Positions 5,469 through 59,929 of a stretch of DNA of 64,000 bases are shown here, in pieces. The stretch spans positions 4,032,501 through 4,096,500 of the forward strand of contig NZ_CP030032.1 of the NCBI RefSeq assembly GCF_003258315.1, written 5' to 3'. Position numbers and translations under genes: made by a program. The stretch is from Bradymonas sediminis (GTDB lineage: Bacteria > Myxococcota_A > Bradymonadia > Bradymonadales > Bradymonadaceae). Position 1 is the stretch's first letter. Each line of letters begins with the position of its first letter. The notes beneath the pieces are model-generated. The model did not search any database, was not told where the DNA came from, and saw only the letters and a list, made by a program, of their open reading frames with translations.

Positions 5469-7364
5469 ATGAATAACAATCTTCATCGCCTCGCGCTCAC
5501 GATTTTGCTCTTTCTCGCTCGGCAGCTCAGGCTGCGCGATTTTGGACGCGATGAGTGGCGCTGAAGATGATAAAGGCGGCCCCGACGCGACTTCATCTGA
5601 CGCCGGCAACCTAGACGCGGGCGATACCGAGCTTTCAGACACCAGCGAGCCCGACGCCGATCTTCCCGACGCGGGCGACGCGGGCGACGCGGGCGACGCG
5701 GGCGACGCGGGCGACGCGGCATTGCCCGACGCGGACGGTGACGCGAGCGACACCGACACCAACAGCGACTCCGGCGAGACCTGCGCGCCGACGACCTGTG
5801 GCCCGTGCGGGCTCGGCCGCATCATCTGCGGCCAGGCGTCCGACGAAGCCGTCTGCGTGCACCCGGACGCTATTCTTGAAGGGGTGAACGAGGCGCAGTG
5901 CGCCCAGAGACTTCTCTTTGTCGATCCTGCGGTAGACATCGATGATGGCACCCATGCCGGCACACAAACGCACCCCTATAAAACCTATCAAAGGGCCCGC
6001 CAGGAAGCCTCGGAAGGCCAAATAATCATTCTTCGCCAAGAGCCCGGCGTGACGTATGAGGAAGGGTTGGTGGTCAAAAACGGCGTCTCGGTGGTCGGCG
6101 GATTTTCGCGCGGCGACGACGGATTTGAATGGTATCCGACCAACGAACCGTCGCGATTTGGGGTGCCATCAACGACAATTTCCCCGCATATCTTTGGCTT
6201 GAGGGCCGTGGGCATTGACTCCGCCACGGTCATCGCCAATATCAGCCTGCGCACCACGAACGCACGGACCGGGGGTAGCAATTACGGCGCCTATATCCTC
6301 AACACGAGCGAGCTCACGCTGCGCGGGGTGTCGGTGGTAAGCGGCGCGGGCGGAGATGGCGCAGACGGGGATTCCGGTGCTCAGGGTGCCAATGGAGAGC
6401 CCGGCCAGACCGTTCAGGCCAGGCTGGTCGCCCCCAATTCCCCTACCTATGACTATTTCGCGCCGAACTACGGCGGCAAACCCGCGCCAGGCTGCCGCCT
6501 CACGGACCGATCTGGCACGGGAGGTCAGGGAGGCCGCGGCGCGAAGAATTTGAGAAAGTCCACAGTGCTGCCCGCCGCGGGCGGCGACGGAGCCCTGCTT
6601 TTGAGTTCGCTCGATGAAAACGGAGGCACGCCCGGGACCTACATAGATATGAACGGCGGCAACGGCTCCGAGGGCGCCGACCGTGTTCTCTCGGGCGCCA
6701 GCGGCACGGGGGCGCGTCGGCGGGCGAACTCTCGGCTGCCAGCCTATGGCGCCCGATCGGCGTTGGTACGCCGGGGGCAGCGGGCCCAATTGGGCAAGGC
6801 GGCGGCGGCGGCGGCGGCGCCGATAAAGCAAGCCATATTATCGCCAGCGCTCCGGGTGGAGGCGGCGGCGGCGGGGGTTGCGGCGGCATTGGCGGTCAGG
6901 GAGGCCAGCCCGGCGGCGCCTCCTTCGGTCTATTTCTCGTCGAATCGACAATCGAGATTCAGGACTCCAGCTTTGCTGCGGGACTTGGCGGCAAGGGCGG
7001 CAACGGCGGCGCCGGCGGCCCGGGCGGCATGGGAGGCCCGGGTGGAAGCGGCTCGAATTTGCAGGTCGTGACCGCGCGCGACGGCCAAGGATACGCCGTT
7101 CAAAGCAACCCGGCCGCCCCGACCTCGGGCGCCGGCGGCCCGGGCGGCATGGGAGGCCCGGGTGGTGGTGGTGGCGGAGGCGCCGGCGGCGGCTCCTACG
7201 GCGCCTATTGTTTCGGCAACAACCTCTTGAGGAAAGTAGGCTCGGTAACCTTTGCCAAGCAGCGCAATAGCCTGGGCGGCACCGGCGGCGATGGTCCCTC
7301 CATCAGCAATCACCACGGCGCCCCAGGCACGTCGAAACTAAGCGTCGGCTGCCTGACCGATTGA
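5469..7364 (+). pseudogene. Gly-rich surface lipoprotein gene with two compensating frameshifts
   Basis: One protein is spread over two frames. ATG 5469 opens a signal peptide ('MNNNLHRLALTILLFLA'). One extra base near 5520 moves the frame, after which a lipobox (S-S-G-C) and the mature protein follow. One missing base in the G run near 6703-6709 returns to the first frame, which runs through Gly-Gly-X repeats to the stop at 7364. If repaired it is a lipoprotein of about 630 residues. It contains an Asp/Ala/Gly linker with GDA repeats, a Cys-rich stretch ('CAPTTCGPCGLGRIICG'), a DUF1565-like beta-helix segment ('LFVDPAVDIDDGTHAGTQTH', 'PYKTYQRARQ') and long collagen-like/poly-Gly tracts ending in a Cys-containing tail. 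Homopolymer sequencing error is as likely as true decay. The unbroken middle piece alone is 5542-7071, whose last ~120 residues are out-of-frame Ala/Arg-rich junk. Confidence 0.72.
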
Positions 7365-31552: not shown

Positions 31553-32692
31553 TCAGAAGTCTGAGATTTGGTCCACCAACTCGGGGTGATCGATAAAGAA
31601 GTTGCGGCTATTTTGCGCCTCGGCGAGTACGTCGTGGCGCGCGCGCTCGGCGGCATCGACCGGGTCGTCGATATGCCATTGGCGCAGCGTCGCGAACGTG
31701 GCGCCAGACGGCATCTCGACGCTTCCTCGCTCACCATATACCACCGCAAAATAGAACATCGCCCGCGCCACATTGCCCTTATGGACATCGCGCGGCTCAA
31801 AGACCTGATCGCCCTGCGCGCTGAAGCCGAGCTTAGAGCCACCCTCACTCCAACTTCCAGACCCCTGCACGACGCCAAAGGGATGGCTGCCGCGTCGACT
31901 ATTGGCCTGCGCATCCGTGATAAAAAGATGATGCAGGTCGGCCTTGGCAACCCCGCTGGCGCCGTGGCTTTGGGGCCAGGTATGCTCGGTATTGAGATCG
32001 TGTTGGCTATACGCGTTGCCCCGCCCCGTCACGATCGCGGTTCGCCCCGTATAAACGCATTCGACCTCTCCATCGGCGCCGACATTATCCATCGCGTATT
32101 GGAACATAACATCACGCGCAGACCCATACCCCAGGTCCGTATGACAATCATGGGAGTCACGCAGCACAGCTTTGAGCGCGTCGTCGGTCAATGCACCGTA
32201 GGTCGTAAAGTCGAACACGCACGGATCAACGCTCGCGTCCTCGTCGACGTCGCCCGCGTCGCTCGCATCTTCGACGTCTTCGGCATCGCTCGTATCTTCG
32301 ACATCTTCGACGTCTTCGGCATCGCTCGCATCTTCGACGTCTTCGACGTCTTCGGCATCGCTCGTATCTTCGACGTCTTCGACGTCTTCGGCATCGCTCG
32401 TATCTTCGACGTCTTCGGCATCGCTCGTATCCTCGACATCTTCGACATCTTCGACGTCACGGGCATCCTCGACGTCACGGGCATCCTCGACGTCACTGTC
32501 GCCATCGGCGTCTTGCGCCGCGTCCTGCCCGCCGGCATCAGCCGTGGCGTCACCCGTATCGGGCTCACCGGCCGCATCGGAGAGCACGTCGGCCTCGGTC
32601 ACATCACCTGAATTCCCGCTGTCGTCGGAGCACGCAGGCGCCGACAAAGCGAAGACAAGAAGCAGCAGAATAAGACGGGAAAACCTTTTCAT
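31553..32692 (-). CDS. secreted endonuclease I lipoprotein, paralogue 2 (acidic VED-repeat linker)
   Basis: A 379-residue lipoprotein: signal 'MKRFSRLILLLLVFALSAPAC', lipid-bearing Cys21. The linker (residues ~22-155) is almost pure Asp/Glu/Val/Ala/Ser, dominated by tandem V-E-D triplets and a 12-residue unit (T-S-D-A-E-D-V-E-D-V-E-D). The C-terminal endonuclease I domain (~160-379) has 'NTEHTWPQSHGASG', 'DLHHLFITD' and 'HKGNVARAMFYFAV', all active-site elements intact. An acidic tether would keep the nuclease away from the membrane and could bind divalent cations (inference). It probably forms an operon with paralogues 3 and 4 upstream (63-bp and 47-bp gaps). Confidence 0.93.
   Translation of the reverse strand: MKRFSRLILLLLVFALSAPACSDDSGNSGDVTEADVLSDAAGEPDTGDATADAGGQDAAQDADGDSDVEDARDVEDARDVEDVEDVEDTSDAEDVEDTSDAEDVEDVEDTSDAEDVEDVEDASDAEDVEDVEDTSDAEDVEDASDAGDVDEDASVDPCVFDFTTYGALTDDALKAVLRDSHDCHTDLGYGSARDVMFQYAMDNVGADGEVECVYTGRTAIVTGRGNAYSQHDLNTEHTWPQSHGASGVAKADLHHLFITDAQANSRRGSHPFGVVQGSGSWSEGGSKLGFSAQGDQVFEPRDVHKGNVARAMFYFAVVYGERGSVEMPSGATFATLRQWHIDDPVDAAERARHDVLAEAQNSRNFFIDHPELVDQISDF
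32234..32494 (-). repeat. in-gene tandem repeat encoding the acidic linker
   Basis: About 260 bp of nested 9-bp (GTCGAAGAC-type) and 36-bp tandem repeats inside the paralogue 2 coding sequence. It stays in frame because all units are multiples of three. This structure is prone to slippage and length change. Confidence 0.85.
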
Positions 32693-56056: not shown

Positions 56057-58654
56057 TTAGCGCGCGCTCACGAACTGCTGGAGCATCTGCCCAAGCGCTG
56101 GCTGGTCGTGGAAGCCCTCGAAGGCGCTGGCGCCCGGGCCAAAGGCGAAGAGCGGCACGAAATTCGCCGAGGTCGGCGCGTTGAGCGCCCCCTTGGCGCG
56201 CTCCACGCCCACCTGGGCGACCCAGCCATATTGAAGCGAGAAATGCAGCGGCGCGAACTCACCTTGCAGCCGCGCGCGCAGCGCCTCATCGCCCTCACAG
56301 GCGACCGTGTCGGCGTTCGCCACCGTCACCGCCTCGACCGGCTGGCACGCCGGGCCGAGCGCCTCGGGCGCCGCCGCGATCTTCTCCAACTCGAAGGTCC
56401 CGCCGAAGTCGACCAGCGCCGCGCCCTGGCAATCATTATGCCCATAATGGTGGTCGATCACCGAGGTGCTATAATCGCGGTCGCCCGTCACGAGCACCAG
56501 CGTCTCGCCGTCGGCCCGCGCAAACTCGACCGCCGCGCGCACGGCCCCATCAAAATCAACCACCGCGTCGACCAGACCACGGTCGCGCTTAAGTCCGCGC
56601 TGGGCCGCGTCGATCTGCGCGCCCTCGACCATCAAAAAGAAGCCCTTATTTTTATCGGATTTTGACGCGTCCTGCGCCTGGCGCGCGAGGTTCTCCAGCG
56701 CGCGTGCGGTCATCTCAGGCAAATTCGAAAACGCCGCATCTTCGCCCGTATAAACGAGGTCAACGCCATCTGATCCCTCGACACGCTCCGCCATCTCGCT
56801 CAACGCATGCGCGATATTTGGGGTCTCGGAGAAGTTTGGCGTATGCGCATAAAACGCCGCCGACGTCGCGCCTGTGATGGCCCCGCTGGTGACCAAACCG
56901 GTCATCATGCCAGCTTGCTCGGAGCGCTCCAATAGCGTCGGCAGGCTCTTCCAGGCGTCGCCCTGGCCGACCCCACCAAGCGCCCCGGCGTGGGTGCGCT
57001 GCCCCGTGGCGAGCGCGGTCGCCGCGGCCGCGGCGTCGTTGGCCAGGCGGTCCGCGCCGTGCGTCGCGACCAGCCCCTGAACCGGCATCTCCATCATCGC
57101 AAGCGATCCTTTTGCGTAATACCCGGCCGTCACGGCGCCCACGCCCATGCCACCTCCAACCATCAGGATGACATTGGTCGGGGTCTTTTCGGCGGTCTCT
57201 TCGACCTGTTTCGCGTCTTCGTCGCTCGCATAAACCGGCACCGTCTCGGCGTCGACCAGGGCCATCAGTCGCGCGCCGAGCACCGCGTTATCGCGACTCG
57301 CCGCGATGGACTGCGCGCCAGGCCCGTGCGCGTAAACCGCGACCATCGCCGCGGTATGCGCCGCGCTAAATCGGCCCTTCCACGCACAAACCCCACGGCT
57401 CGCCAGCGACAGATGCCCGAAGGACAGGCGCATCTCGGAATCCTCCACCTGCGAGAGCGCGCCAAGCCCCGCGAAGTCCGGCGTCCCCTCGCCATATTCC
57501 CCAATCCCCACGGCCGGAAGATGCTCCGGCGACGGGTATTTCGCCTCGACTTCGGCCGCGCGCCCGACCTCGGCCTTCGCCGCGTCGGCGCCGCCGGCCG
57601 CGGCGAGCAGGGGCTTGACCTGCGAAGAATCCAGGACCGAGAAACCGCCGGTCTCGTGGTCACTGGTCACCACGACAAGCGTGTCATCGCGCCCGGCGGC
57701 ATAGTCGAGCGCCGCCTGCACCGTCTCATCGAACTCCAACATCTCTTTGACCACGCCTTCGCCGTCCAGGCTATGCGCGCGCCAGTCGACCTGGGAGCCC
57801 TCGACCATCAAGAAGAAGCCCACCTCATTGTCGCGGTCGAGCACCTCGATGGCCGACTGCATCATCTCGGTGAGCCCCGCCTGACGCTCGGGATTTCCTG
57901 CCTCCTTAAAGTCCGACGGGTCCAAAAGCGCGACCATCTGCCGGGCCGAAGGCGTCGCCTCCTTCATCGCGCCGAGCGTATCTGCGACCGCGTAGCCCTT
58001 CTCTTTAAACGCCGCCATCAGGTCTTTGCCGTCTTTTCGCTTGTCGAAAAAACGCCGCCCACCGCCGATCACCACGTCCACGCCCGAGGCCAGCATATCT
58101 GCGGCCAGGTCGTCATATTGGCGTCGATTCACCCGGTGCCCGGCGAACGCCCCGGGGGTCGCGTGGGTCACGCGCACCGTCGCCACCAGACCGGTCTTCC
58201 ACCCGGCGGCGTGGGCCTTCTCGAGCATCGTCGGGGTCTGATGCGCCGGGTCGGTCTCCTGCTCAACCGTCGTGCCGGGCTTGACCGACATCCCCTCAAA
58301 ATGAGTCTTTCGCCCGGCCGCCAGAGCGGTGGCCGACGCCGCCGAATCGGTGGTCACAAAATCATAGGAATGTGTCGTCACCAGCCCCATGCGCTCCATG
58401 CCCAACATGCTCAGCGGCGCGCCCTTGGCGTAGGTCGCGGCGCTCGCCGCCGACACTCCCATGCCGTCGGCGATCAGATAAATAATGCGCTTGGGGGCGG
58501 CCTCGGTCTTCGCCTCGACCGACGCTTCTTGCGCCTTTGCCGGGGTTTGCTGCCCGTCCGGCTCAACCGTCGTCTTGGGGTGCGAGCAACTCGACACCAT
58601 CACGAGACCAAGCAATAGCAAAAATAAAGCCGCCTTCCCTTTTATCATTCTCAT
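56057..58654 (-). CDS. alkaline phosphatase lipoprotein, tandem domains with inactive second half
   Basis: An 865-residue lipoprotein from the ATG at 58654; other in-frame starts exist at 58726, 58672 and 58648. The signal ends in the lipobox V-S-S-C. The first PhoA-type domain has the metal Asp ('YLIADGMG'), nucleophile Ser ('TTDSAASATAL'), 'MVEGSQVDWRAHS', 'VTSDHETGG' and the late His ('AAHTAAMVAVYAHGPGA'), and should hydrolyse phosphomonoesters. The second domain repeats the fold ('ILMVGGGMG', 'ANDAAAAATAL', 'MVEGAQIDAAQRG', 'VTGDRDYST', 'FAFGPGA') but has lost the Ser nucleophile and most metal ligands, so it is catalytically dead. No Pho-box was recognised upstream, where a repeat array lies. 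Confidence 0.92.
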   Translation of the reverse strand: MRMIKGKAALFLLLLGLVMVSSCSHPKTTVEPDGQQTPAKAQEASVEAKTEAAPKRIIYLIADGMGVSAASAATYAKGAPLSMLGMERMGLVTTHSYDFVTTDSAASATALAAGRKTHFEGMSVKPGTTVEQETDPAHQTPTMLEKAHAAGWKTGLVATVRVTHATPGAFAGHRVNRRQYDDLAADMLASGVDVVIGGGRRFFDKRKDGKDLMAAFKEKGYAVADTLGAMKEATPSARQMVALLDPSDFKEAGNPERQAGLTEMMQSAIEVLDRDNEVGFFLMVEGSQVDWRAHSLDGEGVVKEMLEFDETVQAALDYAAGRDDTLVVVTSDHETGGFSVLDSSQVKPLLAAAGGADAAKAEVGRAAEVEAKYPSPEHLPAVGIGEYGEGTPDFAGLGALSQVEDSEMRLSFGHLSLASRGVCAWKGRFSAAHTAAMVAVYAHGPGAQSIAASRDNAVLGARLMALVDAETVPVYASDEDAKQVEETAEKTPTNVILMVGGGMGVGAVTAGYYAKGSLAMMEMPVQGLVATHGADRLANDAAAAATALATGQRTHAGALGGVGQGDAWKSLPTLLERSEQAGMMTGLVTSGAITGATSAAFYAHTPNFSETPNIAHALSEMAERVEGSDGVDLVYTGEDAAFSNLPEMTARALENLARQAQDASKSDKNKGFFLMVEGAQIDAAQRGLKRDRGLVDAVVDFDGAVRAAVEFARADGETLVLVTGDRDYSTSVIDHHYGHNDCQGAALVDFGGTFELEKIAAAPEALGPACQPVEAVTVANADTVACEGDEALRARLQGEFAPLHFSLQYGWVAQVGVERAKGALNAPTSANFVPLFAFGPGASAFEGFHDQPALGQMLQQFVSAR

Positions 58655-58740
58655 CGCATTCACCCGAGCCATTGGCGCAATATTACCGAGGTTCAACTTC
58701 TCGATGCCCCGCTTATCATTTGCCACCGTAATTCAAAACC

Positions 58741-59411
58741 TTCTAGGTATGGCGAGCACTCACTTTTGCCAGTGCTTGAAGCGCTGGCTCCGATGTTTTG
58801 ACCTCCCACACTCCGGAGCCAGACCTTCTAGGTCTGGTTATCACTTATTTTTGCCAGTGCTTGAAGCGCTGGCTCCGGTGTTTTGACCTCCCACACTCCG
58901 GAGCCAGACCTTCTAGGTCTGGTTATCACTTATTTTTGCCAGAGCTTGAAGCGCTGGCTCCGATGTTTTGACCTCCCACACTCCGGAGCCAGACCTTCTA
59001 GGTCTGGTTATCACTTATTTTTGCCAGTGCTTGAAGCGCTGGCTCCGGTGTTTTGACCTCCCACACTCCGGAGCCAGACCTTCTAGGTCTGGTTATCACT
59101 TATTTTTGCCAGAGCTTGAAGCGCTGGCTCCGATGTTTTGACCTCCCACACTCCGGAGCCAGACCTTCTAGGTCTGGTTATCACTTATTTTTGCCAGTGC
59201 TTGAAGCGCTGGCTCCGATGTTTTGACCTCCCACACTCCGGAGCCAGACCTTCTAGGTCTGGCTAGCACTCACTTTTGCCAGTGCTTGAAGCGCTGGCTC
59301 CGGCCTAGGTCTGGTTATCACTTATTTTTGCCAGTGCTTGAAGCGCTGGCTCCGGCCTAGGTCTCGTTTTGCCAGTGCTTGAAGCGCTGGCTCCGGCGTT
59401 TTGACCGGCTC
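58741..59411. repeat. 85-bp tandem repeat array with three hairpins per unit
   Basis: Seven copies on an exact 85-bp period (the core GCGCTGGCTC starts at 58781, 58866, 58951, 59036, 59121, 59206 and 59291), then two shortened copies at 59343 and 59384. Each full unit contains a palindrome around CCAGTGCTTGAAGCGCTGG, a longer stem GGCTCCG...CGGAGCC, and CCAGACC-ttcta-GGTCTGG. Alternating T/A and A/G variants show a 170-bp higher-order duplication (units 2-3 repeated as 4-5). There are no unique spacers and no cas genes, so it is not CRISPR. It fills the gap between the alkaline phosphatase and hotdog-protein genes; short open frames in it are artefacts. Confidence 0.95.
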
Positions 59412-59422
59412 CGGACAAATGC

Positions 59423-59929
59423 TCACGCATCCTTCTTCTTGCGCACATACAACACCTTCTCCACCTCGGCCACCACATCGCCCGCCTCGTCGATGACCTC
59501 GACCATGAAGACCGGCTCGACCTTATATTGCTCGGCAGCCTGCGCGCGAATCTCGTCGATCCGCTCCTGGGTCAGCGTGAACACCGCGCGCACTTTACCG
59601 CGCCCGGGCTTGCGAAAATGCACGGTCGCCGCCTTATCCCATACGATATAATCCGGCCCCAGATTCTGCATGATCATCAGCATATAAAAGGGGTCGGTCA
59701 TCGCATAAAGCGAGCCGCCAAAGTGGGTGCCCACGAAATTCTGGTTATAAATCGTCAGGTCCATCGCCACGACCATGCGCCGGTAATCCGGCGAGGCCTC
59801 CTCGATGCGAATCCCGGCGCCCACGAAGGGGGCGTAGAAATTCATCAATTGCTTGATATTGCCGACCAGGAGGGTGCGCCAGGTCCGGGTAAGCTGGCGT
59901 TTTGCGGATTTTAGACTCTTCTTCAACAT
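59423..59929 (-). CDS. DUF4442 hotdog-fold protein (thioesterase-like)
   Basis: A 168-residue cytoplasmic protein of the DUF4442 / YiiD C-terminal type hotdog superfamily. 'GAGIRIEEASPDYRRMVVAM', 'NFVGTHFGGSLYAMTDPFYM' and 'WDKAATVHFRKPGRGKVRAV' follow the fold's strand-helix-strand pattern, with 'GTHFGGSLYAMTD' forming the hotdog helix. Members are thought to act on acyl thioesters; the substrate is unknown and the catalytic residue cannot be assigned here. The N-terminus is basic ('MLKKSLKSAKRQLTRTWRTL'). It lies downstream of hutU on the same strand, separated by a terminator, and its own 3' end runs into the 85-bp repeat array. Confidence 0.88.
   Translation of the reverse strand: MLKKSLKSAKRQLTRTWRTLLVGNIKQLMNFYAPFVGAGIRIEEASPDYRRMVVAMDLTIYNQNFVGTHFGGSLYAMTDPFYMLMIMQNLGPDYIVWDKAATVHFRKPGRGKVRAVFTLTQERIDEIRAQAAEQYKVEPVFMVEVIDEAGDVVAEVEKVLYVRKKKDA

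Follow-up and report, generated by a model that had tools for sequence, protein, structure and literature searches.

Tandem cluster of REPIN-like, GGAG-tagged hairpin elements between a hotdog gene and an alkaline phosphatase gene of Bradymonas sediminis

The DNA studied comprises 64,000 nucleotides (positions 4032501-4096500; termed the window) of the single-contig genome of Bradymonas sediminis (G000, 5,045,683 bases). A tandem array sits between two minus-strand genes, upstream of an alkaline phosphatase gene and directly beyond the stop codon of a DUF4442/hotdog gene (Table 1), in agreement with the first-pass annotation, which had placed it in the 5' region of the former and the 3' region of the latter. 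TRF assigned a period of 85 and 6.6 copies, which match at 96% without indels, and the self-identity is 0.96 at a shift of 85, compared to about 0.23-0.28 at adjacent shifts. The first-pass annotation had described seven units of 85 bp; the period holds, whereas the unit alignment gives six full units and one partial unit. Past the period-85 part, two type-b hairpin copies follow at irregular spacing, reaching about 59411. Private variants are found in both edge units, and just two positions vary among the inner units, in phase across a 170-bp block over four units (58823-59162). The 170-bp higher-order pattern noted earlier is thus present, but it consists of two linked single-base differences and corresponds to one duplication of a two-unit block. 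The near-identical inner units and the diverged edge units also support the earlier proposal of recent unequal amplification.

Table 1. Features of the array and its flanking genes (window coordinates; those of G000 in brackets)
Feature	Position	Strand	Basis
REPIN-like tandem cluster; period 85 in 58738-59302, two additional copies of one hairpin after it	58738..59411	.	TRF, unit alignment, hairpin matches
Left-edge hairpin, damaged, tag lost, AAACCTTCTAGGTATGG	58736..58752	+	sequence; diverged edge unit
Type-b hairpin, first, GGAGCCAGCGCTTCAAGCACTGG	58769..58791	-	hairpin matches
62-nt element 1, complete: type-a (+), 16-nt linker, type-b (-), GGAG tags outward	58815..58876 (G000 4091315-4091376)	.	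hairpin matches, model R1
Element 2, complete; single long hairpin fold	58900..58961	.	hairpin matches, model R1, folding
Element 3, complete	58985..59046	.	hairpin matches, model R1
Element 4, complete	59070..59131	.	hairpin matches, model R1
Element 5, complete	59155..59216	.	hairpin matches, model R1
Element 6, complete	59240..59301	.	hairpin matches, model R1
Additional type-b hairpin within shortened right edge	59331..59353	-	hairpin matches
Final type-b hairpin	59372..59394	-	hairpin matches
Alkaline phosphatase gene, flanking; PF00245, 330 bits; start codon ATG 58654, alternatively GTG 58726	56057..58654	-	
DUF4442 / hotdog thioesterase-like gene, flanking	59423..59929	-	

The phosphatase open reading frame (56057-58726, minus strand) encodes 889 residues, which by eye appear as two tandem phosphatase-like halves; Pfam matches it in three stretches. 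The second half has NDAAAAATALATGQRT where the first has TDSAASATALAAGRKT, and its active site may therefore be dead. Elsewhere in the window, TRF found dense 27/36/63-bp tandem repeats at 32244-32496, possibly within coding sequence, and a perfect 9-bp tandem repeat, CGACGCGGG, of 5.9 copies at 5667-5719.

Each 85-bp unit is composed of a 62-nt element and a 23-nt spacer. The element consists of two inverted 23-nt hairpins whose GGAG tags face outwards: GGAGCCAGACCTTCTAGGTCTGG is followed, after a linker of 16 nt, by GGAGCCAGCGCTTCAAGC[A/T]CTGG in inverse orientation. The stem of either hairpin measures 8 bp and its loop 3 nt. Fifteen tagged hairpins are present in the window, all inside the array, compared to 0.06 in shuffled sequences. 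The type-b palindrome, CCAGTGCTTGAAGCGCTGG, has a T-G or A-G stem mismatch in every window copy, so that the type-b hairpin of the window may be decayed and immobile. As in BIME-2, the units are arranged in tandem with hairpins alternating in orientation. Folded as single-stranded DNA, the segment 58899-58961 adopts a single long hairpin fold (-17.6 kcal/mol, z -6.4), as a REPIN doublet does. The first-pass annotation had each unit fold into three hairpins, and the segment 58769-58837 does so when folded as DNA (-16.0 kcal/mol, z -4.3; none of 200 shuffles was as good), the third hairpin being merely two GGAG tags face to face (GGCTCCG/CGGAGCC). A search for a target-site signature of the element found none, and the CT cleavage sites near the hairpins, inspected by eye, take no fixed position.

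Genome-wide searches revealed that this hairpin is not confined to the window. The core CCAGNNCTTNNAGNNCTGG has 86 matches in G000, with near-palindromic places counted on both strands, compared to none for the reversed control, and the looser pattern GGAGCCAGN{8,14}CTGG has 123 compared to 30. The tagged form GGAGCCAGACCNTCNWGGTCTGG matches 76 times in G000 and not once in 38 relatives of the same family, order and class, none of them of the same genus. Family elements with other linkers and spacers occur at 13 or more further places, and the listed matches of model R1, a covariance model of the doublet built from 13 sequences, fall at no fewer than 14 separate G000 loci, the window and the transposase locus described below included. 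A short palindrome right after a tag, in many copies, is a hallmark of REP sequences that this family shares. The first-pass annotation had suggested searching the whole genome for the unit; the many loci found speak for a mobile family rather than a single locus. Further arrays lie at 861319-862878 (period 124), 2325427-2326673 (period 99), 948612-948990 (period 87-91) and 2524254-2526319 (periods 44 and 108/109). Since linkers and spacers differ between the arrays, each was probably amplified separately. Elements also stand singly, for example at 1809622 and 3592067.

At seven loci, the non-tandem elements tend to be embedded in a longer stretch that they have in common, with GCGTTCAG at one flank and GATGTTA...CTGAACGC at the opposite flank; in the alignment these two are outer inverted repeats, preserved in part and located about 24 nt past the tags. 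The right-hand pattern has 17 matches compared to 0 in the control. In G000, the element may also extend past the doublet to the outer inverted repeats GCGTTCAG...CTGAACGC. The 23-nt spacer of the window agrees by eye with the outer arm (GATGTT...) at about 11 of 18 bases, which is suggestive of a truncated arm of such an extended element, though we do not claim it as one.

The Y1_Tnp profile has nine matches in G000. One of them, a 201-residue RAYT-like HUH transposase gene at 2524653-2525255 (minus strand), sits between two arrays of the window-type hairpin. Its best NCBIfam family is NF047646 (REP-associated tyrosine transposase), at 67.7 bits, which is below the curated cut-off of 80, and it scores 26.9 bits against Pfam Y1_Tnp, above the cut-off of 23. 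A phmmer search against PDB chains gave no match at E 0.1. The residues H122 and H124 of the HUH motif (H122xH124), Tyr182 (Y182) and Asn186 (N186) are invariant in 10 aligned proteins, and the stretch that holds the motif reads M-G-[T/S]-H-x-H in this protein and its closest homologue, compared to M-P-N-H-x-H in the other eight of the ten. Moreover, W161, Q162, D167, R168 and R171 (W-Q-x4-D-R-x2-R) are spaced as the guide- or tag-contact residues W94, Q95, E/D100, H/R101 and R104 of Escherichia coli TnpA-REP, as listed in passages of PMC6006769.

Two further loci of G000 carry other tagged hairpins. A second RAYT-like gene (214 residues; locus L049, 1510000-1513500) has its own GGAG-tagged hairpin family on both sides, with GGAGCGCGGGCCTCCCGGCCCGC and GGAGCGCGGGCGTCCCCGCCCGC in alternating orientation and nine hairpins of the form GGAGCGCGGGC... 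In locus L020 (around 313909), positions 64-284 hold four tandem 65-bp copies of the GGAG-tagged GGAGCAAGGGCATCCTGCCCTTG, near an IS200-like TnpA gene.

The transposase is matched at E 0.001 in 12 of the 21 family genomes, its own included. Homologues of at least 50% identity outside its own genome number two, both in G010 (8,047,206 bases), a genome from a different genus of this family. At 54% identity, the closer of the two carries arrays of GGAGGCAGCGCTTCGAGCGCTGG and GGAGGCAGACCATCTTGGTCTGG on both flanks, so that the hairpins flank the transposase on both sides in both genomes, as is characteristic of REP sequences; counted as GGAGGCAGCGCTTCGAGCGCTGG and GGAGGCAGACCATC[T/C]TGGTCTGG, these flanks hold 20 hairpins, compared to 0.2 in shuffled sequences. 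The pattern GGAGGCAGN{8,14}CTGG has 188 matches compared to 16 for the control in G010, and 2 compared to 5 in G000. Both inner-stem types of the window unit (ACC/GGT and CGC/GCR) are thus standard types beside the homologous transposase in G010. A scan for GGAG, GTAG or GTGG tags with perfect 7-bp stems found no hairpins beside several RAYT relatives or the second G010 homologue (50% identical), with a count of 0 at six loci, nor near five further loci; several family genomes hold more distant RAYT relatives without hairpins visible to the three-tag scan. In genome G017, a RAYT relative (locus L053) has TGGAG-tagged palindromes on both sides, at 1795-1831 and 2483-2633, with the stem CGATGAC/GTCATCG.

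Among 150 candidates scored per genome, with near-palindromic places counted on both strands, model R1 gave 144 matches in G000, 100 in G010, two in G018 and two in G002, while 17 of the 21 genomes have no match at all; it is abundant solely in the two genomes that hold this transposase lineage. An inverted hairpin doublet is the dispersed unit, as for REPINs: among the matches listed, all 13 isolated opposite-orientation doublets (two in G000, 11 in G010) have their tags outward. The linker is no longer than 24 nt in 12 of the 13; the remaining one, in G000, has a 96-nt gap and is no real unit. The same listed matches include two same-orientation doublets and many single hairpins. This count omits non-hairpin rows, one overlapping pair, the G010 transposase-flanking array and the window array. 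In a scan of 84,980 species, the tagged hairpin has one lone exact match, in a Rhodomicrobium MAG (locus L055; BQJK01000002.1, 4784-4806).

The stems of these hairpins covary, as the first-pass annotation had proposed to check across copies. The alignment comprises 45 distinct 23-mers taken from the matches listed for both genomes, omitting four rows of other length and one stemless 23-nt row from G000, and five rows of 21-22 nt from G010. In these hairpins 88.9% of the stem cells are paired (71.8% in shuffles). The covariation score reaches 0.386, compared to 0.088 in shuffles, and none of 500 shuffles scored as high. Because the tag and three to four outer pairs were fixed in the search patterns, only the inner pairs (columns 9-12 paired with 16-19) are informative. 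At the base of the stem, one genome has the pair C-G and the other G-G.

The tag of the family differs from the published one. Across 66 distinct hairpin contexts of G000, it is GGAG in 59 and GGGG in three, with no tag in four; the scan did not require a tag, though some of the loci had originally been found with tagged patterns. The bases AG of the tag are thought to set cleavage at CT. Passages of PMC3686654 and PMC6006769 give the REP definition (Nunvar 2010/2013) as a 5' tetranucleotide GT[A/G]G; as the tag here is GGAG, the element is placed as a variant in which one defining REP tag letter fails. The same text of PMC6006769 assigns a CnGA foot to a separate class, and PMC3733652 gives CGTC as the tag of a palindrome family with no tie to transposases. 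In one system described in PMC8266576, cleavage occurs at CT and tag bases 3 and 4 are essential; GGAG keeps both of these bases. Reading GGAG in place of GT[A/G]G, the guide-reading pocket of the transposase would have changed its specificity for the second base while keeping AG. The GGAG tag is also found beside the second RAYT (1511583, L049) and beside the RAYT in G017 (L053). We tentatively suggest that a REP/RAYT lineage of the Bradymonadales might have a recoded tag, with no fewer than three hairpin families having exchanged GT[A/G]G for GGAG, a reading we hold to be nearly as probable as its opposite. Searches of the open-licence literature found no account of REP/RAYT in this Bradymonadales lineage.

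Altogether, the anatomy of the unit, its recurrence in the genome, the covariation of the stems and the association with a RAYT in two genera argue that the array is very probably a BIME-like tandem cluster of a REPIN-like non-autonomous element, presumably dispersed by the RAYT and then amplified in place. A non-autonomous palindromic element had been among the first-pass options, and it gains from the unit's presence at many loci and from the RAYT-like gene between arrays of the same hairpin. By analogy with the REP/RAYT literature, the transposase at 2524653-2525255 would recognise the tagged hairpins as single strands, and would have placed one element, by copying or by moving it, between the hotdog gene and the phosphatase gene. 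The pattern of the units suggests that this element, together with the adjoining 23-nt spacer, was then amplified by slippage or unequal recombination, a process that would have included the one duplication of a two-unit block. At this locus the array most likely serves no function of its own, and in our view needs none; as has been reported for BIMEs of E. coli, however, its hairpins may act on the end of the mRNA or on local supercoiling.

A role as a protein-binding array for chromosome organisation, offering sites for gyrase, IHF or a regulator dimer, would be compatible with a mobile origin, and we regard it as unlikely. The alternating tandem units resemble BIMEs, which bind gyrase according to a passage of PMC2817692, and a chromosome-organising role has been proposed for E. 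coli BIME-2; for a mobile element, however, such binding would be a secondary role. A locus-specific regulatory RNA or attenuator, whose hairpins terminate, stabilise or process the hotdog-phosphatase mRNA under selection on copy number, is distinctly improbable. The array does lie between two same-strand genes, and the 671-nt RNA on their strand is highly structured (z -16.9, 20 shuffles), but strong structure follows automatically from tandem palindromes. Moreover, Rfam has no family match in the window, a scan for promoters and terminators over 58500-59600 found none, and the hairpins recur at other loci with other unit lengths, linkers, spacers and periods, which together speak against the dedicated structured RNA offered as a first-pass option. 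Against the mobile reading stands that no empty site could be shown: hotdog homologues were present in 11 relatives, and at the nine of these loci that were read, with flanks of about 1.5 kb or less, the gene never has the phosphatase as a neighbour. That an assembler expanded a single copy is very improbable: near-identical units are hard to assemble, but the edge units have private variants, the inner units have phased differences, four more G000 loci hold arrays of other periods, and the sequencing of B. sediminis FA350 used PacBio plus Illumina, as stated in the text of PMC7460792, which also describes a transcriptome. An ordinary minisatellite with palindromes arising by chance would account for the clear local amplification seen by TRF and unit alignment, yet it has next to no probability given the genome-wide family, the transposase beside it and the compensating stem changes.

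We therefore read the window array as a cluster of mobile elements and not as a regulator dedicated to the phosphatase. Few transposase-linked repeats are believed to have been domesticated by their hosts for a long time; REP/RAYT systems belong to these, and their published tag has counted as a defining feature. A lineage with a divergent RAYT, another tag and two hairpin subtypes common to genera makes it possible to examine, in a natural experiment, how the guide is read by the transposase, and it suggests that scans demanding GTAG or GTGG miss whole families.

Comparison with known systems places the element near several of them. For the REPINs of Pseudomonas fluorescens SBW25 (Bertels and Rainey 2011), passages of PMC3116915 describe doublets as the mobile unit; an inverted doublet that as a single strand forms a long hairpin, clusters in tandem whose flanks vary, and neighbouring RAYT genes are shared with the array studied here. 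The present element differs by its GGAG tag, by the different subtypes of the two hairpins in the window unit, and by its organism, which lies outside the published set consulted. E. coli REP/BIME and TnpA-REP (REPtron) likewise have alternating hairpins in tandem, an HUH transposase with neighbouring hairpins, and different hairpin subtypes (y and z) joined in one unit, whereas the hairpins here lack the conserved bulge and have an 8-bp stem, a 3-nt loop and GGAG for GTAG. The short REPs of Stenotrophomonas (REPtron Sm), as portrayed in passages of PMC8266576, share the tetranucleotide abutting an 8-bp stem with a 3-nt loop, and differ in the second tag base, which is G instead of T here. The GTAG and CGTC palindromic super-families and the TIRtrons (PMC3733652) also comprise short palindromes with a tag, which form dimers and clusters and in some cases adjoin RAYT genes; neither of the two tags fits the present family, and yet its GGAG hairpins stand beside a RAYT-like gene.
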